Assembly (NCBI GenBank): GCA_947426945.1
Contig: CANEFX010000012.1
Location: 1-64,000 of the forward strand
Direction: 5' to 3'
DNA: 64,000 nt
Source of the DNA: an uncultured Bacillota bacterium
Lineage (GTDB): Bacteria > Bacillota > Clostridia > Oscillospirales > Oscillospiraceae
The notes beneath the pieces were generated by a model, which ran no database searches, had not been told where the DNA came from, and saw only the letters and a list, made by a program, of their open reading frames with translations. The translations under genes and the position numbers were made by a program. The first letter of the stretch is position 1. Each line of letters starts with the position of its first letter. This document shows, piece by piece, positions 40,073 to 55,497 of this stretch.

Positions 40073-40714
40073 TTATTGCCGTACTTTCCTTGTCTCCCCT
40101 AAGCCCTCCACCTCTTCCCAGTCCAGTATCCGGGTGCACAACCGCTCCAGCAGCGCACGATCATGGCTGACGATCAGCAGTCCCATTTCCCGCTGTTCCG
40201 CCTGTCCCAGCAGAAACCGCCACATCCGCGCCTGGGTGACCAGGTCCAGCATGGCGGAGATCTCGTCACACAGCAGAAACCTTACCCCGGGCCGCATTGC
40301 CCGAGCCACACAGATACGCTGCAGCTCCCCTCCGGACAGCTCTGAGGGATACCGCTCCAGCCAGCTCTCCCGGACACCCAGGCCCTCCAAAACCCCGGGG
40401 TCTGGCTGTCCGGCCTCATACAGGGTGGCCCGCAGCTTCAGCAGGGGATCTACCGCCTCCTCAGGATGCTGCCACAGCAGCTGCACCGGGCACAGTCCCC
40501 GGCGTGGAAGGGGCCCGCCATCCAGCATCACCTGTCCCCTGCCGGGCTCCTCCCACCCAGCCAACAGTTTGCACAGGGTAGTCTTTCCCCGGCCGCTGGG
40601 GGCAGACAGGCCCAGCCGTTCCCCGGTGCGCAGCACAAGGCTCACCCCTTTCAGCACCGGGGCCGCCCTTCGGCAGGGGTAGCGGAAGGTGAGGTCTTTA
40701 GCTTCCAGAATCAT
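40073..40714 (-). CDS. ABC transporter ATP-binding protein, NikE/DppF-like
   Basis: A 213-residue ATPase with Walker A SGRGKT (40-45), signature ELSGGELQR, Walker B FLLCDEISAMLD and the H-loop SHD. It is shorter than usual DppF/NikE because it lacks the C-terminal oligopeptide-transporter extension. ATG at 40714 is preceded by AAAGGGG; the frame upstream is not similar to the family. It ends the nickel operon and forms a heterodimer with the ATPase at 40765. Confidence 0.9.
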   Translation of the reverse strand: MILEAKDLTFRYPCRRAAPVLKGVSLVLRTGERLGLSAPSGRGKTTLCKLLAGWEEPGRGQVMLDGGPLPRRGLCPVQLLWQHPEEAVDPLLKLRATLYEAGQPDPGVLEGLGVRESWLERYPSELSGGELQRICVARAMRPGVRFLLCDEISAMLDLVTQARMWRFLLGQAEQREMGLLIVSHDRALLERLCTRILDWEEVEGLGETRKVRQ

Positions 40715-40764
40715 CCATACGGCCCCTTTCCTAAACTTTCTTTTCCATTGCGGCGGAAATGCTC

Positions 40765-41541
40765 TTATACCTCGGGCCAATTTCTGGGCATGGCTCGCCA
40801 CAGGGCCGCACTGTAAGGGTGGGTCAACCCCTCCCCGGTCTGAAAGCAGCGGGCGGGGACCTCGTCCACCCGCCGCCCCTCCTGGAAAACCAGAATCTTG
40901 TGGGCTGCGGCGCAGGCCAGCTCCAGATCATGGGTAATGAACAGAACCCCGGCCCCCTCCTCCGCCAGCTCCCGGAAATGGCCCAGAATCCGTTTCGCTG
41001 CCCGGGCGTCCAGGCCGGGAGTAGGCTCGTCGGCTACGATCAGCCGGGGCGCATCCATCACGGCAGAGGCGATAAGCACCCGCCGGGCCATCCCTCCGGA
41101 CAGTTCAAAGGGGTACATCTCCTCCACCTCGGGGCCCAAGCCGTAGCGCTCCAGGGCCTCCCGGCAGCGGGTCCGGGCGGCCACGTCCCGCCTGCCCCGG
41201 CGCAGCTGTCCCCCAATTTTCATCATGGGGTCCAGATAGGTCACCCCCTGGGGGATAAGGGAAATCTCCCGGCCCCGAAGCTCCGCCGCACGCCGAGCGG
41301 TGAGAGGGGCTCCATCGTAGAAAATGGTCCCCTCCATCCTTGCGTTCCCGGGCAGCAGGTGGAAAATGGCGTGGGCCAGCAGGCTCTTCCCCGAGCCGCT
41401 CTCCCCCACTACCGCCGTCACACGGCCCGGCTCCACCGTAAGGGACAATTCCCGGATGGCGGACACCCCAGTCCTGGACAGCCCCTGGCCATATCGGTCA
41501 AAAGTGACAGACAGGCGTTCCACCGTTAAAATAGGTTCCAT
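40765..41541 (-). CDS. ABC transporter ATP-binding protein, NikD/DppD-like
   Basis: A 258-residue ATPase with Walker A GESGSGKS (about 46-53), signature FELSGGMARR and Walker B LIVADEPTPGLD. It lies 9 bases after the permease gene and 50 bases before the second ATPase gene. With the two permeases and the binding protein it completes a nickel/peptide (PepT-type) importer, most likely for nickel because the operon also makes the nickel-pincer cofactor. Confidence 0.92.
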   Translation of the reverse strand: MEPILTVERLSVTFDRYGQGLSRTGVSAIRELSLTVEPGRVTAVVGESGSGKSLLAHAIFHLLPGNARMEGTIFYDGAPLTARRAAELRGREISLIPQGVTYLDPMMKIGGQLRRGRRDVAARTRCREALERYGLGPEVEEMYPFELSGGMARRVLIASAVMDAPRLIVADEPTPGLDARAAKRILGHFRELAEEGAGVLFITHDLELACAAAHKILVFQEGRRVDEVPARCFQTGEGLTHPYSAALWRAMPRNWPEV

Positions 41542-41550
41542 AGCCGCCTC

Positions 41551-42369
41551 CTATTCCTGGGCGCTGGCGGGGGCAAGCAGCAGTCGCATCCGCTCCCCCA
41601 CCCCGGCAAAGAGAGCCGTCACCAGCACCAGCGACAGCCCCGGGAACAGGGCCAGCCACCACCGCCCCGTAGCCAGATACCCCATGCTCTCCGACAGGAT
41701 TACCCCGATTGCGGGCTGTTCCGGAGACAGACCGAAGCCCAGAAAGGTGACGCTGGCCTCGTGGAGGATGGCGTGGGGAAACTGCAGAATCACCCCTGTG
41801 AGAAACTGGGGAAAGAGATGGGGCGCCAGATGCTTCCGGAACACCTCTCCCTGGGACGCCCCCAACTGCCGAGCCATGCGGATATAGGGAGCCTGCCACA
41901 ACTGGAGCGTTTCCTCCCGCACCAGGCGCGCCAGGGAGGTCCAGTGACTGAGAACCACACCCAGGGTCACCCCCCAAAAGCCCCGTCCGCAGGCGACGGA
42001 GATAAGGATTATCAGCAGGATATGCGGAATGCCCATAACCAGATCGACAATCCAGGAGATACACCCGTCCACCCACCCCCCAAAGACGGCACAGGCAGTG
42101 CCCAAGGCCAGGGACAATCCCCCGCTGAGCAGGGCGGTGAGGGCTCCGATGCGGATGCTCAGGGAGAGCCCGGCCAGGGTGCGCCCCAGCATATCCCGCC
42201 CCATCCAATCGGTACCGAAGAGATGCCCCCAGCCGGGGGGCAGGTTTTTCCGGGTAAAGTCGGCAATACCGGCCCCACTCGCCATCAGTGCTCCCGCCAA
42301 AGCGACCAGACACAGGGCCAGTGCGGCAAAAATCACCAGCAGCAGCGTGCTCTTCCGGCGATTTTTCAT
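41551..42369 (-). CDS. ABC transporter permease, NikC/DppC-like
   Basis: A 272-residue membrane protein with six predicted helices. The family features are HLFGTDWMGRDMLGRTLAG near residue 50 and the EAA loop around YIRMARQLGASQGEVFRKHLAPH. The ATG overlaps the stop of the other permease (ATGA). It forms the channel with the permease at 42366. Confidence 0.92.
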   Translation of the reverse strand: MKNRRKSTLLLVIFAALALCLVALAGALMASGAGIADFTRKNLPPGWGHLFGTDWMGRDMLGRTLAGLSLSIRIGALTALLSGGLSLALGTACAVFGGWVDGCISWIVDLVMGIPHILLIILISVACGRGFWGVTLGVVLSHWTSLARLVREETLQLWQAPYIRMARQLGASQGEVFRKHLAPHLFPQFLTGVILQFPHAILHEASVTFLGFGLSPEQPAIGVILSESMGYLATGRWWLALFPGLSLVLVTALFAGVGERMRLLLAPASAQE

Positions 42370-43352
42370 ATCTTAGCCTCCCCCCTTCTAATACGGGGAT
42401 CAACGACCCCGTAGAGCAGATCGGCGACCAGGCTGCCCCCAAAAACCAAAGCCGCGGTGACCACCGTAATCCCCAGCAGCAGGGGCATATCGCTCCCCAG
42501 GCCGGCGGCCACCGCCGCCTGGCCCAGCCCAGGAAAGGAAAAGACCTGCTCCGCCAGCACCGAACCGCCGATCAGCTCTCCGACAGAGGCAAACTGCAGC
42601 GTAAGGGCGGGCAGAGCTACTCCCCTCAGCACATGCCGGCAGACGATGTGCGCCTCTCCCCTAGCCCGGGCAAACAGGATATAGTCGCTGTCCAGCACAT
42701 CGGCGACCTTCTCACGGGTGTGGAGGGCGATATTCGCCGCTCCGGTAACCGAGAGGGTCAGAGCAGGCAACAGGGCGTGGCGCAGCCGCTCCCCCAGGGT
42801 GACGGCGGCAGTCTCTGTTCCGACGGGCGCGGAAAATCCAATGGGCAGCACCTTCAGCCACACGGAAAATATCATAAGCAGCAACAGGGCCAGCCAAAAA
42901 GACGGCGTACTGGAGACGACCAGGCAGCCTCCTCGTATCAGTCTGTCGGGCCACCGGCCGCGGCGCGTCCCGGCCAGCACTCCCAAAGCCACGCCCAGCA
43001 CTCCGGACAAAACCCAGGCGCAGACCAGCATCCCCAGAGAGTTGGAAATCCGCTGGCCGATCACTTCCAGCACTGGCCGGCGGTAAAGCAGCGAGGTCCC
43101 AAAGTCCCCCCGCAGAGCGTCCCTCAGCCAGTTCAGATACCGCTCCGCCGGGGGCGTGTTCATCCCCCAATACTCCTCCAGACGGGCCGCCTGTTCCTGG
43201 CTCATGGAGCCCAGCGCCGCCTGGCCCACATTGGTCTGGAGGGGGTCCAAAGGGGAGGCATCCATCAGCAGAAAAGCAGCCAGGCTCACCCCCAGCAGGA
43301 GGAGGGCTATGCGGACCAGCTTTCTTGCGGTAAATTTCAGTCGATGTTTCAT
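42366..43352 (-). CDS. ABC transporter permease, NikB/DppB-like
   Basis: A 328-residue membrane protein with six predicted helices and the typical large loop after helix 1 holding GDFGTSLLYRRPVLEVI. The EAA loop is DSDYILFARARGEAHIVCRHVLRG. The start at 43352 overlaps the binding-protein stop (ATGA) and has GGAG 6 bases upstream; an alternative ATG four codons earlier is possible. Confidence 0.92.
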   Translation of the reverse strand: MKHRLKFTARKLVRIALLLLGVSLAAFLLMDASPLDPLQTNVGQAALGSMSQEQAARLEEYWGMNTPPAERYLNWLRDALRGDFGTSLLYRRPVLEVIGQRISNSLGMLVCAWVLSGVLGVALGVLAGTRRGRWPDRLIRGGCLVVSSTPSFWLALLLLMIFSVWLKVLPIGFSAPVGTETAAVTLGERLRHALLPALTLSVTGAANIALHTREKVADVLDSDYILFARARGEAHIVCRHVLRGVALPALTLQFASVGELIGGSVLAEQVFSFPGLGQAAVAAGLGSDMPLLLGITVVTAALVFGGSLVADLLYGVVDPRIRRGEAKI

Positions 43353-44866
43353 TTCCAGCTCCATTGATCCACATTGTTCACAATGGACCAGCCGTGGCCG
43401 TGGGGGTGGAGCTTCTGCTCCGCCACGTGTAGGCCGTCCCGGACCCAGTACAGGTGGTCCACATTCACCAGCCACACAAAGAGCGTGTCTTTGGCAATCT
43501 CCTCCTGGGCTTTCTGCCACAAGGTATAGGACAGCTCCAAATCGGTGCAGGCCAGGGCCTCGTCCATCCAGGCATCCAGGGCGCTGTTGGAGTAGCCATA
43601 CATATTTCCTGAGTGGTAGATGCCGTACATATCCATAGGGGTGTGGGCCCCCCAGCCCCAGATTGTGGGGGTGCGCCAGGCCTCGCCGTAGATGGTCTCC
43701 CAGTCCACCCCCTTGGGGTCGGCCTGGATGCCCAATTCCCTGAGCTGGTTGGACAGCTCGGCGGCTAGAGCCTGGCGGAGGAAGTCCCCGGCGGGGTAGT
43801 GGATGGTGAGCTCCGCCCGGCCGAAGCTCCACATCTCCCGGATGCCGTCTTCCCCGGGGAGCCACCCCGCCTCGTCCAGGAGGGCACCGGCCCTCTCCCG
43901 GTCAAATTCCACCTCCGCAAGAACGGGATTGTACCAGGGCATGTTGTCACACACGCTGTAGGCGGGGGCGCCATAGCCGTTGAGCACGTTGTCAATCATG
44001 GCCTGCCGGTCGATCCCCATATTGATGGCCTGCCGGATATTGTTGTCGGCGGTAAATTCGGGCAGGGGCAGGTTGACCCCCCGGTTGTCCACCGTCCGGA
44101 CGGACAGCAGGGAAAAGCCGTCCACGGTCCGGTCGCAGTAGGCGGCGGAGGTGTAGGCCAGGTCAGCCCGCCCCGCCTGAACAGCTAAAAGGGCGGCGCT
44201 CTCCTCCATGAACAGAATGTTTACCCGCTTCATTTTGGGCTGTTCGCCGTAGTAACCCGAGTTGGCCTCCAAAATAACCTGCTGCCCCCGGTCCCACTGC
44301 TTTAGGATGTACCGTCCGGAGCCGACAGGGTTTGCCCCATATACGGCTGGGTCGTAGGTGTCCTTCGGGACAATACCCAAAGTGGCCATGGTGTAGGGCC
44401 AGACAGAGAAGGGCCGGGTCATGTGAAAGACCACCGTGGTGTCGTCCACGGCCTCAGCCCGGTCCAGCATGGTCAGGTCGGTAACGGAGCAGGCATCCCG
44501 GGCTGCGTTGTAGGTAAAGGCCACGTCGGCAGCGGTGAGGGCGGTTCCATCGGTAAACTCCACCTCCTCCCGGATTCTTACCGTCCAGGTCAGGCCATCG
44601 CCGCTGGCCTCCATGGAGGCGGCCAAGTCATAGCCGATGGTCAGATCCGGGTTGGTCACCGTCAGGGTGGACTGGATCAGCGGCTCATGGGCATGCTCCC
44701 CCGCTCCCCAGCCGAACACGGGGTCAAACCCCGCCTCAGGCTCGGAATCGGGGGGCATCACTATGGTAACGGCGCTTTTGTCCCGGGAAGTCTCTTCCGG
44801 CGGAGAGGTCCGGCATCCCACCAGCAGGGAGAGCGCCAGAAGCAGACAAAATACTGTTTTTCTCAT
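43349..44866 (-). CDS. ABC transporter substrate-binding lipoprotein, NikA/DppA-like
   Basis: A 505-residue family 5 solute-binding lipoprotein. The signal peptide ends in the lipobox LLVGC. Binding-fold signatures are WTVRIREEVEFTDGTALTAADVAFT and GSGRYILKQWDRGQ. Family members bind peptides, nickel chelates or haem; the lar genes upstream favour nickel. Two adjacent ATG codons (44869 and 44866) are possible starts; the second has the better 7-base distance to AGGAG. Confidence 0.9.
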   Translation of the reverse strand: MRKTVFCLLLALSLLVGCRTSPPEETSRDKSAVTIVMPPDSEPEAGFDPVFGWGAGEHAHEPLIQSTLTVTNPDLTIGYDLAASMEASGDGLTWTVRIREEVEFTDGTALTAADVAFTYNAARDACSVTDLTMLDRAEAVDDTTVVFHMTRPFSVWPYTMATLGIVPKDTYDPAVYGANPVGSGRYILKQWDRGQQVILEANSGYYGEQPKMKRVNILFMEESAALLAVQAGRADLAYTSAAYCDRTVDGFSLLSVRTVDNRGVNLPLPEFTADNNIRQAINMGIDRQAMIDNVLNGYGAPAYSVCDNMPWYNPVLAEVEFDRERAGALLDEAGWLPGEDGIREMWSFGRAELTIHYPAGDFLRQALAAELSNQLRELGIQADPKGVDWETIYGEAWRTPTIWGWGAHTPMDMYGIYHSGNMYGYSNSALDAWMDEALACTDLELSYTLWQKAQEEIAKDTLFVWLVNVDHLYWVRDGLHVAEQKLHPHGHGWSIVNNVDQWSWK

Positions 44867-44910: not shown

Positions 44911-46125
44911 CTACATAGTCTTGATCTGCCTCATCGCCGCCTCAAACACCGTCTGATAGGGCAGCCCGTGCTCTCTGGCCAGAGCGGCCGCGTCCTCAAA
45001 CTCCGGCTTAGCGTGGATGACCCCATACCCCCGGGCCAGCTTCACCCTCACCGGCCCCCACTGTGTCTGAACCTGCCTCATGTCAGAGGTGAGAAAGTAC
45101 TTCCCGCACCGCCGGACCCGCAGGCCGTTTGTAGCGGTGTGGGCAAAAATCTGTCGAACCAGTTCTCCCTCCCGGCCGGGCTCACACAGCACGGTGAGCA
45201 CATGACCGGGCCGCCCCTTCTTCATGGTGCCGGGGGTGGTGTATACATCCAGCGCCCCCTCCTCCAGCAGTCGGGCACAGGCAAAAGCCAGAGCCTCAGG
45301 GGACATGTCGTCGATGTTGCACACCAGCTCCACAATCTCTCCGCCGGCCTCCTCCCGGCACTCCCCCAGGAAGGCCCGGACGCAGTTGGCCTGCTCAAAT
45401 TCCCTGGTCCCCACGCCGTATCCAACCTTCTCCGTAACCATAACCGGCATGGGACCAAAGGACCGGACAAAGGTTTTCAGCAGAGCGGCCCCCGTGGGGG
45501 TACACAGCTCCCCCCGGACTTCTCCCCCGTAGGCAGGCACACCGGTAAGCAGCGCAGCAGTGGCGGGAGTCGGGACAGGCATGACCCCGTGAGCGCATCG
45601 CACCGTCCCACTGCCTACGTGGACAGGGGATGCGCAGATCAGACCGGGATTTAGCAGACGGACAGCATAGCACACCCCCACTACGTCGGCCACCGCATCC
45701 AAGGCCCCCACCTCGTGGTAGTGGACATCTCCCACCTCGCAGCCATGGGCTTGGGCCTCTGCTCGGGCGATGATGTCATAGACCGCCCGGGCCTTCTCCC
45801 TCACCTCCCTGGGCAGAGACAGCCCGTCAATAATTTCCCCGATATGTCCCGGTGTGGCGTGGTGATGCTCATGCGCATGGCCATGGTGCTCGTGGCTGTG
45901 GTCGTGTTCGTGCTCCTCTCGGCCGCGAACCGTCACCTTCATGTGAGTACCCGCAATTCCTCCGGTCCTGACAGCCACGGGAGCCACCTCCACCCCAGGC
46001 AGGCCCAAAGCGTTCATCATATCCAGGAAGTCTTTCCGCTGCTCCTCGCTCAACAGCTCGTAGAGCGAGGCCATCAGCATGTCTCCGGCGGCACCCATAC
46101 TGCATTCAAGGTAAAGTGTTTTCAT
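44911..46125 (-). CDS. larC: Nickel-pincer cofactor nickel insertase LarC
   Basis: A 404-residue CTP-dependent cyclometallase that inserts nickel into the pyridinium bis-thiocarboxylate mononucleotide. It starts MKTLYLECSMGAAGDM, and residues 72-94 hold twelve His, a likely nickel store. Later blocks are HYHEVGALDAVADVVG, ELCTPTGAALL and CNIDDMSPE. In Lactobacillus plantarum larC is split by ribosomal frameshift; here it is one continuous frame. The ATG at 46125 overlaps the larB stop and has GGAGG 7-8 bases upstream. Confidence 0.95.
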   Translation of the reverse strand: MKTLYLECSMGAAGDMLMASLYELLSEEQRKDFLDMMNALGLPGVEVAPVAVRTGGIAGTHMKVTVRGREEHEHDHSHEHHGHAHEHHHATPGHIGEIIDGLSLPREVREKARAVYDIIARAEAQAHGCEVGDVHYHEVGALDAVADVVGVCYAVRLLNPGLICASPVHVGSGTVRCAHGVMPVPTPATAALLTGVPAYGGEVRGELCTPTGAALLKTFVRSFGPMPVMVTEKVGYGVGTREFEQANCVRAFLGECREEAGGEIVELVCNIDDMSPEALAFACARLLEEGALDVYTTPGTMKKGRPGHVLTVLCEPGREGELVRQIFAHTATNGLRVRRCGKYFLTSDMRQVQTQWGPVRVKLARGYGVIHAKPEFEDAAALAREHGLPYQTVFEAAMRQIKTM

Positions 46126-46880
46126 GAAATTCCCTCCATCTGGTTTATCATACTGGCCAGATAACCGGCCCCGAAACCATTGTCGATATTGACCACGCTG
46201 CACCCGGAAGCACAGGAGTTAAGCATAGCCAGCAGGGCGGACAGCCCGCCGAAGCTGGCCCCGTAGCCCACACTGGTTGGCACGGCGACAACGGGACAGT
46301 CCACCAGCCCGCCAATAACCGAGGCCAACGCCCCCTCCATCCCGGCTACAGCGACAACGCACCGGGCGCTCATCAATGGGTCCAAGTTGGCCAGCAGACG
46401 GTGGAGCCCCGCCACCCCCACATCATACAGCCGGGTGACCCGGTTACCCAGAGCTTCGGCGGTAAGGGCAGCCTCCTCCGCCACAGGCATGTCACTGGTA
46501 CCGCCGGTGGCCACCACAATATGGCCCAGCGCTTTCCGCACTCCCGGGTATGCAACGGCCAGCCGGGGAACAGGGTGGTAGTCCAGGGGAAGGGCTTCGG
46601 ACACAAATTTTGCTGCCTCGGGAGACAGACGGGTGATGAGGATGTTCCGGCAGCCCCGCTCCCCCATGGCGGAGGCGACACCCGCAATCTGCTCGGGGGT
46701 CTTGCCCGCTCCATAAATGACCTCCGCCGCTCCCTGACGCACCCCCCGGTGCAGGTCCACTTTGGCATAGCCCAGGTCGGCAAATGGCTCTCGCTTTAAT
46801 TGGGACAGGGCTTCCTCCGGCGTGGCGGAACCATCTGCCACCTGGCGAAGAAGCTGCATAATATCATGCCGGTTATCCAA
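46122..46880 (-). CDS. larB: Nickel-pincer cofactor biosynthesis protein LarB
   Basis: A 252-residue enzyme that carboxylates and hydrolyses nicotinic acid adenine dinucleotide, the first step to the nickel-pincer nucleotide. It resembles PurE in its second half: VATGGTSDMPVAEEAALTAE and VAVAGMEGALASVIGGL with VPTSVGYGASFGG. The TTG at 46880 is chosen because AAGGAGG lies 8 bases upstream; a later ATG (46859) has no ribosome site. It is coupled to larC by a 4-base overlap. Confidence 0.94.
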   Translation of the reverse strand: MDNRHDIMQLLRQVADGSATPEEALSQLKREPFADLGYAKVDLHRGVRQGAAEVIYGAGKTPEQIAGVASAMGERGCRNILITRLSPEAAKFVSEALPLDYHPVPRLAVAYPGVRKALGHIVVATGGTSDMPVAEEAALTAEALGNRVTRLYDVGVAGLHRLLANLDPLMSARCVVAVAGMEGALASVIGGLVDCPVVAVPTSVGYGASFGGLSALLAMLNSCASGCSVVNIDNGFGAGYLASMINQMEGIS

Positions 46881-46893
46881 AGTAAAAACCTCC

Positions 46894-47649
46894 TTAGTCA
46901 ATTGGGGTTCTGGACCGCAGGTCCAAAGTAATTTCTGAAAAATCCGCCTCAAGGGCAGACAAAATACTTTCCCGACGCTCCAGGGCTAAGGAGAACTGAT
47001 CTTCCCGCACCTGGAGCTTGGCTCCGCTGCGGGTAAGCCGCAGGCGGAAATCCCAAAAGCCCAGGCCGGACAGAAGTGTCTCCCCCCGCTCCACACGCTC
47101 CAGGTCCTTCCCGGTAATGGCCTGTCCAGCCGGAACCCGGGTGGCCAGGCAGGCATAGGACGGCTTATTCCAGGTGAACAGCCCCGCCTGGCGGGACAAT
47201 TCCCGGATACGTTTCTTGGTCAGCCCGCACTCCCGCAGGGGGGAACGGACCTCCAGCTCAGCCAGCGCCCGCATACCAGGCCGGTCCCCCCCGTCGTCCG
47301 AGGCATTTGTACCGTCCAGCAGCAGGGAAAAGCCGTCCGCCGCCGCCCGCTCCCTGAGAAGGGAGAACATCCGCCGCTTACAATAATAGCAGCGGTCCAG
47401 CGAATTGGCGGTCACCGCCTCATCGTCAAGAATATCGAGCTCAACCACTACCAATTCCACACCTGCCTGGCCACACAGGCGCCTGGCATCCTCCAATTCA
47501 ATCTGAGGCTGGAAAGGAGTTTTGACAAAATAGGGGCGAAGCCCGGCCCTCTCCCGGAGTCCCTCGTACAGCAGATAGGCGGAATCTACCCCCCCGGACA
47601 GAGCCAGTGCTCCGCAGGGATTTTTTCTGAAAAATTCTCTCAGTGTCAC
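46894..47649 (-). CDS. larE: Nickel-pincer cofactor sulfur transferase LarE
   Basis: A 251-residue PP-loop ATPase that adds the two sulfur atoms of the nickel-pincer nucleotide. The PP-loop is SGGVDS (18-23). Cysteines are in CYYCK (Cys87, Cys90) and YACLATR (Cys167). In some LarE proteins a single Cys is sacrificed as sulfur donor; in others three Cys hold an iron-sulfur cluster. The three here suggest the second type but the assignment is tentative. The GTG at 47649 has AGGAGGG at 7 bases. It is the first gene of the lar-nik operon, behind a structured leader. Confidence 0.93.
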   Translation of the reverse strand: MTLREFFRKNPCGALALSGGVDSAYLLYEGLRERAGLRPYFVKTPFQPQIELEDARRLCGQAGVELVVVELDILDDEAVTANSLDRCYYCKRRMFSLLRERAAADGFSLLLDGTNASDDGGDRPGMRALAELEVRSPLRECGLTKKRIRELSRQAGLFTWNKPSYACLATRVPAGQAITGKDLERVERGETLLSGLGFWDFRLRLTRSGAKLQVREDQFSLALERRESILSALEADFSEITLDLRSRTPID

Positions 47650-47793
47650 GGCCGCACCCTCCTGATGGAAAGAAAAAGGCATACCAATACGGTATGCCTT
47701 CTGGCAAGCCCCGAACTTCTGTATCGGGTATGTCATTTTCATTATTCTATTCAGAGTCAAAGGCCTTCTGGCCCATTCGCGGCTTCCTGCCGC
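47650..47793 (-). ncRNA. Structured 5' leader of larE with intrinsic terminator; candidate riboswitch
   Basis: Read on the minus strand from about 47793. Hairpins follow in order: GCGGC/GCCGC (47793-47779), GGCC-AGAA-GGCC (47773-47762), CCCGA/TCGGG (47728-47710) and TGCC-AGAA-GGCA (47706-47695). An intrinsic terminator stem of 10 bp (47700-47676) then runs into T5, 13 bases before the AGGAGGG of larE (47663-47657). The terminator's left arm uses bases of the last small hairpin (47700-47695), so the two cannot form together. The element GCCAGAAGGC occurs twice, in the second and last small hairpins. I do not recognise a known class; the NiCo riboswitch consensus is not matched. The ligand might be nickel or the pincer nucleotide. 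Confidence 0.6.
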
Positions 47794-47799
47794 TTGTTT

Positions 47800-47829
47800 A
47801 GTATAGCAAAAGCGCACTGTCTCTGTCAA
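47800..47829 (-). promoter_or_regulatory. Promoter of the lar-nik operon
   Basis: Perfect TTGACA (47829-47824) and TATACT (47805-47800) with an 18-base spacer, about 150 bases before larE. Confidence 0.8.
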
Positions 47830-53874: not shown

Positions 53875-55497
53875 ATGGAAACTGTATTACGGGAGAAGCA
53901 CGCACGAAAGGAGAGCGCCGGAAAACCGAACCTGACAGGCATTCCCATACAGATGAAGCTGGATTTTGAGCAGCGCAGCGGGCTGTCATTTGATCATGTT
54001 CGGGTACATTATCAATCCTCCGAGCCCGCTAAGCTGGGTGCGCTCGCCTACACGCTGGGGGAGCAGGTCTACATTGGACCGGGGCAGGAAAAGCATCTGC
54101 GTCACGAATTGACGCACGTGGTCCAGCAGAAGCAGGGGCTGGCAGCTCCTACCGGGACGGTGGGCGGCCTTTCGATAAACGAGGACGCCCGTCTGGAGCG
54201 GCTGGCAGAACACGAGACGGTCTCCACCGGGGCGCTGAAGGACCAGGCAGCGGTTGTCCAGCGCCAGCGCGTGCCGACGCCGGGTCAGACGGCCGAAGAG
54301 CGGTTTTCACAACTGGTTAACCGGGTGCGGATTCTTCAGGACCAGGATGACATTCTTCACAATAGGAATGCGGCGAATGCAGTACAGGATATTGCCCAGG
54401 AGCTTGTCGATATCGGCCTGCCTCAGGCCACGGCGAATAACATCGCCGCCGACGCCGCTGCGGCTATCCAGGCTGCAGGCAACCATGTGGAAATTGATTT
54501 TTTCCGGGATAAGGTCAGGCATGCATATAACCAGCAATCAAACGTCCAGCGCGGCGCGGATTTCAACGCACCACAGAATACGCCCCAGCACACACTGCTG
54601 ACGCAGCTGCTGACTGTTAACCTCCTTCCATTAATCAACCAAGCGCCTGCCCCGGCTGGAGCAGGCCCAATCCGGTATGCTATCGCGGGCCCCCGCGCAC
54701 GGAACAATCAGGCTATAATCGACGACGGAATCGGACGGATGAACAACCTGCTCGCCCCTCAGCTCCCAAGGGGAGGGATTCTGCCCCCCGTCGATATAGA
54801 AGATACGGCCTTTGGGGGCGTGACCGCTCCCCGACATAATATTTTTGGCCGGGGACTACAGTGGTACGGTCTTGGAGCCGGACCCTCCCAAGTGATGCAT
54901 GAGCAGGGGCACCACCTGGAAAATTACCTGGGCGTCAACGACTTCGCCAACCTGCACAACTACCTTTACCGGCATTCCGATCCCACCCAGCCCAACCGGG
55001 AAAGCGGATGGAACCGTCTAGCCGGCTTTAAGCTGAATACTCCAACCGGCGGCCCGGGATACAATATTAAATTCCCCGAGATGCACTTTCAAAATGTAAT
55101 CAGCCGAAACCTGCACAGCGGAAACGGCCTGATCCGATTTGGCTTGTTCAATGCAGGCAACGCGCTCCTCTATGAAGCTGCCTCCCTGTTTGGCCAGCCC
55201 GGCCGCGGGCAGCAATTCATAGACGACTTCTATCTGGAGGAATCCAATTCAAACAGCACCGGCTATGCGTCCCACTATAAGTCCATAGGATACGGGACCG
55301 AATTTCTCTCCACAACGGCAGAGCTCCTGTCGACAGTTAGAGGGGCGCAGGCCGTTATCAACAGCGACCCAACACGGGTGGCAATGTTCCTTTATCTGGC
55401 AAATCGCCCGTTGTATCAACAGGTTGACCAGCTCTTCCAGCAGTCTCCAAACAACCCTCTGGGCATAACGCTGGATCAGTTCCTCCATATCATATGA
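53875..55497 (+). CDS. DUF4157 domain protein with a second HExxH metallopeptidase-like site
   Basis: A 540-residue soluble protein. Residues about 20-95 are DUF4157: FDHVRVHYQSSEPAKLGALAYT, then HELTH (77-81) in the context HVVQQ. DUF4157 is a zinc-protease-like module found at the start of many effectors of extracellular contractile injection systems and of polymorphic toxins. A long helical region (about 130-220) leads to a C-terminal domain with HEQGH (342-346) in VMHEQGHHLENYLG, a second metal site. There are no sheath, tube or baseplate genes nearby. A weak promoter (TTGTCC/TATGGT, 53801-53829) lies upstream. The target is unknown; a secreted toxin or protease is likely. Confidence 0.85.
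   Translation: METVLREKHARKESAGKPNLTGIPIQMKLDFEQRSGLSFDHVRVHYQSSEPAKLGALAYTLGEQVYIGPGQEKHLRHELTHVVQQKQGLAAPTGTVGGLSINEDARLERLAEHETVSTGALKDQAAVVQRQRVPTPGQTAEERFSQLVNRVRILQDQDDILHNRNAANAVQDIAQELVDIGLPQATANNIAADAAAAIQAAGNHVEIDFFRDKVRHAYNQQSNVQRGADFNAPQNTPQHTLLTQLLTVNLLPLINQAPAPAGAGPIRYAIAGPRARNNQAIIDDGIGRMNNLLAPQLPRGGILPPVDIEDTAFGGVTAPRHNIFGRGLQWYGLGAGPSQVMHEQGHHLENYLGVNDFANLHNYLYRHSDPTQPNRESGWNRLAGFKLNTPTGGPGYNIKFPEMHFQNVISRNLHSGNGLIRFGLFNAGNALLYEAASLFGQPGRGQQFIDDFYLEESNSNSTGYASHYKSIGYGTEFLSTTAELLSTVRGAQAVINSDPTRVAMFLYLANRPLYQQVDQLFQQSPNNPLGITLDQFLHII

Follow-up and report, generated by a model that had tools for sequence, protein, structure and literature searches.

What kind of RNA precedes the genes for nickel-pincer nucleotide synthesis in the 64-kb stretch of DNA analyzed here (the window), and to what might it respond? 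An earlier note on this locus had proposed a candidate riboswitch sensing nickel, a pyridinium nucleotide or the pincer cofactor. We compared the leader with its homologues, and weigh a directly ligand-binding RNA against an RNA bound by a protein and against other readings.

Organization of the lar-nik operon and its leader

The operon lies on the minus strand and opens with larE (46894..47649, GTG start), which encodes the sulfur transferase of nickel-pincer nucleotide synthesis (TIGR00268, 223.8 bits against a cut-off of 150). It is followed by larB (46122..46895; NF033503, 278.4 bits, cut-off 175) and larC, containing LarC1 and LarC2 (44911..46128; LarC TIGR00299, above cut-off), both with approximate starts. 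With all three profiles above their cut-offs, the nickel-cofactor genes announced downstream of the leader are indeed there. Next come a NikA-like substrate-binding protein, likely for nickel (43349..44866, start approximate), whose best match, TIGR02294 nickel_nikA, lies below the curated cut-off (116 versus 393 bits), and NikB, NikC, NikD and NikE-like permeases and ATPases, which end the operon (40073..43350, boundaries approximate). This order, larE-larB-larC, NikA-like, NikBCDE-like, is identical at L122, L199, L200, L204, L205 and L206. Elsewhere in the window, positions 53875-55497 of the plus strand encode a 540-aa protein with an N-terminal stretch containing HELTH, which we take to resemble DUF4157.

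Upstream of larE, a sigma-70-type promoter (47800..47829, minus strand) combines TTGACA (47829-47824) and TATACT (47805-47800) across 18 nt. It matches the consensus at 11 of 12 positions and carries the TG of an extended -10, in line with the strong promoter noted earlier. Transcription is predicted to start at about 47793, which gives a leader of about 144 nt up to the larE GTG (47649), the length given before. The four small hairpins reported for this leader could all be located on the minus strand. P1 (GCGGC-AGGAA-GCCGC, 47779..47793), at the predicted 5' end of the transcript, and P2 (GGGCC-AGAA-GGCCT, 47761..47774), whose loop starts 19 nt after that of P1, make up the first tandem pair. 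A linker (47729..47760) that varies in length and sequence among homologues leads to the second, which consists of P3 (CCCGA-t-AC-AGAA-GT-TCGGG, 47710..47728), with a loop start 18 nt before that of P4, and P4 itself (TGCC-AGAA-GGCA, 47695..47706), the predicted antiterminator. The sequence said to be common to two of the hairpins, GCCAGAAGGC, occurs exactly two times in the 64-kb window, within P2 and within P4. An intrinsic terminator (GGCATACC-gtatt-GGTATGCC-TTTTT, 47673..47698), the predicted default structure, stands ahead of the larE ribosome-binding site AGGAGG as read from the sequence (47658..47663), in the arrangement described earlier. Bases 47698-47695 are common to the 3' arm of P4 and the start of the terminator stem, so that the overlap previously placed at 47695-47700 was about right.

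The leader folds with a z-score of -3.40, and 0 of 200 shuffles were equally stable. In the minimum-free-energy fold of the full-length window leader, P1 is replaced by longer-range pairing of its 3' side with the P3 region, which disfavors P1 as drawn. This pairing is absent from the consensus fold of 11 leaders and was not adopted.

Homologous leaders in related genomes

Of 300 family genomes, 154 had a LarE match (E<=1e-20). We examined the DNA upstream of 90 larE genes, among them that of the window (30 + 60 loci from a longer match list), and found at least two motif hairpins within 260 nt upstream of larE at 20 of the 90 loci, or 21 of 90 under a slightly different rule. Random pieces of the same loci, leaders included, had at least two such hairpins in 17 of 1800 cases. 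Many of the other larE genes listed lie closely behind another gene or have unrelated upstream DNA. At L006 and L009, a terminator and a tandem of two hairpins stand upstream of larE where the leader would be expected; the loops differ, and these may be leaders that have decayed or diverged.

Further leaders were sought with three covariance models: R1 in 300 family and 394 order genomes; R2 in 25 chosen genomes, in 391 from the class, 21 from the G313 family and 140 from the G1002 family; and R3 in 109 genomes of the G597 family and 299 of the phylum. All leaders kept have a terminator-like hairpin before the first gene, which was judged by eye and was part of the selection criterion. The accepted set leaves out the weak matches with E values of 0.0025 or weaker (L112-L114, L116-L121, L159, L161, L165-L171, L178, L185 and L187), as well as L160, L162-L164 and L184. 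Model matches in which no tandem GA hairpins were seen by eye were rejected (L104, L105, L106-L110, L115, L174-L177, L179, L186, L190 with E 2.6e-5, L191-L193, L216, L221 and L222). L158 (G246, E 9.8e-5), with one motif hairpin, was counted neither way. L219 (G1413:C39:34061-34203, E 8.8e-6) has the motif-like hairpins CGGC-AAAA-GCCG and TGGCC-AGAA-GGCC and no clear promoter or terminator.

Two main forms were seen among the leaders. A-type leaders have mostly tetraloops and a short terminator, and B-type leaders have a pentaloop in P1 and P4 and a long terminator. Folding indicated a weak P1 in L047, L173, L189 and L022.

The hairpins are supported by covariation

Double-change cells exceeded those of shuffled alignments in each set, never being equaled in 500 shuffles: we counted 26 against 8.2 among 11 A-type leaders aligned with MAFFT, 34 against 9.1 among 15 leaders (R1 alignment) and 89 against 28.4 among 25 leaders (R2 alignment), the latter two alignments being fitted to models and so leaning towards the structure. 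The covariation check that had been called for was therefore passed on all three sets. The covariation score of the 25 leaders was 0.688, against 0.196 when shuffled, and slid versions came nowhere near. Pairs changed on both sides were less striking, at 7 versus 5.0 for the 11 leaders (62/500) and 11 versus 8.9 for the 25 (19/500).

Among individual helices, P1 pairs formed in 100% of cells of the 25 leaders and the terminator was paired in 99.2% of cells of the 15, both in model-fitted alignments; the P3 helix belongs to the RNAalifold consensus of the 11 leaders. In the A7 alignment of 15 leaders, columns 134-137, the 3' arm of P4, pair both with columns 125-128 and with terminator columns 173-176. 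Sequence comparison thus shows the hairpins, their covariation, the loop spacing described below and the strand common to P4 and the terminator.

Paired loops are set 19-20 nt apart

Little is conserved in these leaders beyond the loops and their closing pairs, which are nearly invariant as C-(AGAA/AGGAA/TGAA)-G. The closing pair is C-G in every sequence with letters at that place in the 25-leader alignment (P1 17/17, P2 24/24, P4 25/25). When any standard closing pair was allowed, 44 leaders yielded 135 loops of four or five bases that contain GA (AGAA 61, AGGAA 29, TGAA 9, CAGA 6, and others), and 116 of the 135 were closed by C-G. This census covers GA-holding loops and so misses AAAA and AAGC in P1 of L027, L041 and L042; some of its single odd loops probably lie outside the motif.

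The distance between paired loops is nearly fixed, a feature absent from the earlier note: the loops of a pair follow a ruler of 19-20 nt. With a script accepting 14-26 nt, the loop starts of pair 1 were 18-22 nt apart (19.7 +/- 0.8) in 30 of 44 leaders. With one accepting 12-28 nt, a second pair near the terminator had loop starts 18-20 nt apart (mean 18.9) in 13 of 44, one of which, L198, is a first pair by position. With a stricter script, pair 1 was recovered in 32 of 44 leaders and the two pairs together in only 15 of the 44; the P3 of the window went uncounted there because its stem is interrupted. The P1 stems found by the strict script were 3-9 bp long with spacings of 17-22 nt, the spacing rising slightly with stem length (r 0.50). 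Without any pairing rule, GAAG-to-GAAG distances in 42 leaders were most often 19 nt (25 cases). Of 102 such distances, 44 lay between 17 and 21 nt, where 0.98 would be expected judging from other stretches of these loci. A-type leaders have P3 and P4 as their second pair. In B-type and some other leaders, as we read them, the second pair is P4 and the upper terminator, often with a loop of the same kind (for example L143, L013, L040, L188, L189 and L211).

The motif is specific and matches no Rfam family

We wrote a two-hairpin descriptor requiring C-(AGAA, TGAA, AGGAA or ATGAA)-G loops on stems of at least 4 bp, with a gap of at most 10. In the 64-kb window it found exactly one site, this leader. 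Over 641 kb (44 sequences, mostly chosen for holding lar genes or leaders) it found 22 sites, 22/22 at leaders, against 0.05 in 20 dinucleotide shuffles, and it had a site at 17 of 23 scanned leader loci. Seven of eight other loop sets gave 0 or 1 sites; the eighth gave 13, but it corresponds to the motif in reverse complement and detects these very hairpins from the opposite strand. The host genome holds one strong leader copy, the next best R2 match having an E value of 0.15.

At gathering score, Rfam 15 found only tRNAs in the whole window, with nothing on the leader, and only tRNAs and SRP RNA at 20 loci with homologous leaders. This agrees with the claim that the leader fits neither NiCo, cobalamin nor other known classes. 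Weak matches on the leader (ctRNA_p42d, a snoRNA, preQ1-II and others) had E values of 0.87 or more and look like chance. The NiCo model was not among the leader matches up to E 10, nor did it match at gathering in the 20 loci; the Guanidine-II (mini-ykkC) model was unmatched by the window and, at gathering, by the 20 loci.

The NiCo riboswitch (czcD RNA), likewise a nickel-related leader RNA, is a four-way junction controlling metal export, whereas synthesis and likely import genes follow the leader here. Guanidine-II also has two small look-alike hairpins, but its loop sequence, ACGR, is unlike the leader loops, it serves other genes and its Rfam model found no match. Its two stem-loops are joined by a flexible 7-40 nt linker (PMC7544219), in contrast to the nearly fixed loop spacing here. 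BglG/Sac RAT antiterminators resemble the leader in having a protein-stabilized hairpin that overlaps a terminator; they have no tandem pairs, RAT being a single 29-30 nt element (PMC3369931).

The leader precedes lar genes and likely nickel transporters

Leaders were found before lar genes, Nik/Opp-type and FecBCD-type transporters, ECF S components and DUF3842. The accepted leaders fall in seven families: f1, f15 and f26 within the order, f52 and f74 within the class, and f127 and f163 beyond the class in the same phylum. Matches were sparse, with 9 of 391 class genomes at E<=0.005 and 8 of 299 phylum genomes at E<=0.002, host and false ones included. Sixteen genome matches at E<=1e-5 had not been used in training the respective model. 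Two precede larE (G284, whose leader was already known via LarE, and G1227), three memA-memB with larC or larE (G1002, G1490, G1418), one larB-FecCD (G1091), three Nik/Opp-type genes (G957, G1168, G1212), two FecBCD (G313, G1209), two ECF S (G078, G335) and one DUF3842 (G1320); another is at a contig end (G1165) and another lies elsewhere (G1413). Since memA/memB, FecBCD, ECF S and DUF3842 were recognized as members after they had been sighted, this is no blind test. The names memA and memB, coined here, denote two small membrane proteins that head leader-led lar operons (L172 689-1449; L198 1716-2490; L237 56-1013; L238 339-1076).

Inside some leader-led lar operons, FecB-FecCD-FecE-type genes take the place of NikABCDE after larC (L201 4979-7990; L202 7317-10280; L207 9365-12349; L209 6459-9401). 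Because they follow larC where other lar operons have NikABCDE, the FecBCD-type transporter is likely an alternative nickel importer family. FecCD and FecE also follow larB in L195 (10355-12254). For the ECF S genes, and for the Nik/Opp genes of L213 and L214, a tie to nickel is suggested only by association; the proteins of the latter genes are 22-36% identical to those of the window. In L149, an ECF S gene is followed by a methyltransferase related to that of the FecBCD operon of L147. The same locus holds L146 (L149 7375-7479, G597), a leader-like RNA with promoter, hairpins and terminator whose downstream neighbor is a convergent AraC-like gene, the ECF S gene lying about 1.5 kb further on; this could be a stand-alone RNA. 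Judged from gene content, the leader-led set likely consists of nickel-pincer genes and likely nickel-uptake genes.

These neighborhoods bear on the proposed signal. In favor of the pincer cofactor or an intermediate of the lar pathway being sensed, as feedback on lar, 27 of 44 leaders lie directly before larE, though most of these 27 were found via LarE. However, leaders also precede transporters without adjacent lar genes (L143, L212, L103, L182 and L215), and G078, a 100% complete genome in one contig, has a leader before ECF S and no LarE match at E<=1e-20. The G078 leader disfavors the pincer cofactor as the signal, and we regard such feedback as very unlikely. Of the sensor claim in the earlier note, nickel status survives as a plausible signal, and the pincer cofactor is the part that fares poorly.

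DUF3842 in leader-positive genomes

A DUF3842 protein is encoded under the leader (L236 1680-2162) or adjoining it (L196 228-617; L202 14188-14592; L172 2498-2893; host G000:C10:264-647). DUF3842 was present in 19 of 19 leader-positive genomes and in 0 of 14 named controls, a comparison whose scope is leader-positive genomes and these controls, with no leader-negative relatives. It occurred in the larE flank at 4 of 20 leader-positive loci versus 1 of 70 other larE loci, with flanks of unequal length; the single locus, L083, has a possible degenerate leader. The fold predicted from a 3-sequence alignment (mean pLDDT 79.3 for the best model, 64.9 to 41.5 for the other four) is Rossmann-like, with weak UbiX and dehydrogenase matches, and a PDB sequence search gave one match, at E 0.26. 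The predicted model shows no sign of an RNA-binding fold, and DUF3842 as the missing regulator was set aside and kept merely as an idea. The name DUF3842 was absent from the open-licence papers searched.

P4 and the terminator are predicted to exclude each other

We used ViennaRNA to fold 25 full leaders and found that the modeled pair probability of P4 was at most 0.1 in 22 of the 25, the exceptions being L188, L123 and L010; in L188, L172 and L010 the model puts the P4 columns on the terminator loop, and the values there do not bear on P4. When the 3' arm of the terminator was left off, the P4 probability reached at least 0.5 in 14 of those 22 leaders. In the window leader it rose from 0.0 in the full leader to 0.92 without the arm. 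These folds predict that the terminator is the default, with the genes off, and that P4 is able to form in the nascent RNA ahead of synthesis of the terminator 3' arm.

The RNA therefore has the arrangement of an antitermination leader: an alternative hairpin that shares a strand with the terminator before the first gene and is kept in homologues. It also joins a conserved structured domain to a mutually exclusive expression platform, as riboswitches generally do, which is equally true of protein-bound antiterminators. It would be far-fetched, in our judgment the least probable reading of all, to see here a plain attenuator or stability leader with hairpins as mere stabilizers and no specific binder. 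A terminator-like hairpin does close the leaders kept, ahead of the first gene (as judged by eye, and as part of selection), but the stems vary freely around loops, a closing pair and a spacing that persist, features that mere stabilizers would not keep.

A protein-bound antiterminator or a riboswitch

Since conservation is confined to the small loops, the closing pair and a loop distance of 19-20 nt, the leader looks more like a protein-bound tandem-hairpin antiterminator. We hypothesize that it belongs to a new leader-RNA family of tandem hairpins, whose C-(AGAA/AGGAA)-G loops lie about 19 nt from each other, and that it serves nickel-pincer and likely nickel-uptake genes as a transcription antitermination switch operated by a trans-acting RNA-binding factor; we rate this at slightly better than an even chance. 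By binding the hairpin pair beside the terminator, such a factor would prevent the terminator from folding, pair 1 perhaps recruiting it while pair 2 is transcribed. Holding the loops would switch the genes on, because the terminator is the predicted default. Given that default, and genes for synthesis and likely uptake downstream, we infer an activator working when nickel is short; the factor would be active when nickel, or a nickel-charged state, is low. The binder could also favor termination, as more than 10 leaders carry a motif-like loop on the terminator itself.

The closest known systems are the dual-hairpin antiterminators bound by ANTAR proteins (EutV, NasR and AmiR targets), which likewise have tandem same-loop hairpins, a second hairpin that excludes an intrinsic terminator, a spacing that matters and a terminator by default. 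Hallmarks of these targets are a tandem of two hairpins whose second member overlaps the terminator and a linker sensitive to length; regulation requires both loops and suffers when the linker is altered (PMC3369931, PMC8934654). In the window, P3-P4 are such a pair (47698-47695 overlapping), and homologues have one as well. A canonical ANTAR regulator could therefore be imagined as the binder. Yet ANTAR loops are hexanucleotides in which position 1 must be A and position 4 must be G (PMC3369931), and P1, P2 and P4, all closed by C-G (17/17, 24/24 and 25/25), do not have them; opening the closing pair here gives a hexaloop starting with C. A1-G4 hexaloop hairpins occurred 5 times in 44 leaders, never two per leader. 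In addition, the leaders here often have two pairs rather than one, with C-G-closed AGAA/AGGAA loops, and serve nickel/lar genes instead of ethanolamine, nitrate or amide genes. We thus find it highly improbable, a little more so than pincer feedback, that these are canonical ANTAR targets.

Alternatively, nickel or a nickel-linked metabolite might be bound directly by the tandem purine loops, which would dock on each other, speculatively by way of tandem sheared G.A pairs, and the docked pair would decide whether the terminator forms. Simple tandem hairpins can be riboswitches, as guanidine-II illustrates (PMC7544219). Moreover, inspection by eye of the first 70 residues of unassigned ORFs at 18 loci revealed no recurrent regulator beside the leaders, an absence that a riboswitch would explain more simply. 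Against direct binding, little is conserved outside loops and closing pairs, and a spacing of 17-22 nt despite P1 stems of 3-9 bp would be unexpected for free docking. In addition, a nickel ligand that stabilized P4 would turn on its own importers, the wrong sign. Because no candidate protein has been found, we keep the riboswitch as an unlikely but serious alternative. A new nickel-responsive class that senses nickel status directly, in which purine-loop hairpin pairs on a 19-nt ruler dock loop to loop around the metal or a nickel-linked ligand, and that controls a phylum-wide regulon of nickel uptake and nickel-pincer synthesis with DUF3842 and several unassigned transporters as new members, appears to us slightly more doubtful again. 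The candidate riboswitch of the earlier note is upheld as a conserved, covarying leader that overlaps its terminator, matches no Rfam family and heads nickel-pincer and likely nickel-transport genes; that it is a riboswitch in the strict sense is doubtful, as the pattern looks more like a protein-bound antiterminator.

Implications for nickel regulation

Among the items listed in a search of open-licence literature (subscription papers and preprints lay outside its scope), we found no such leader for lar, Nik or nickel import genes, nor any RNA-level control of nickel acquisition genes or nickel-pincer synthesis. In PMC11770544, the passages on transporters, regulation and operons gave two matches, both unrelated. 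The 19-nt loop ruler sharply constrains, in a testable way, what could bind the loops. The leader RNA provides a sequence handle on a nickel regulon, in which FecBCD-type and ECF S transporters and DUF3842 stand out as likely nickel genes.
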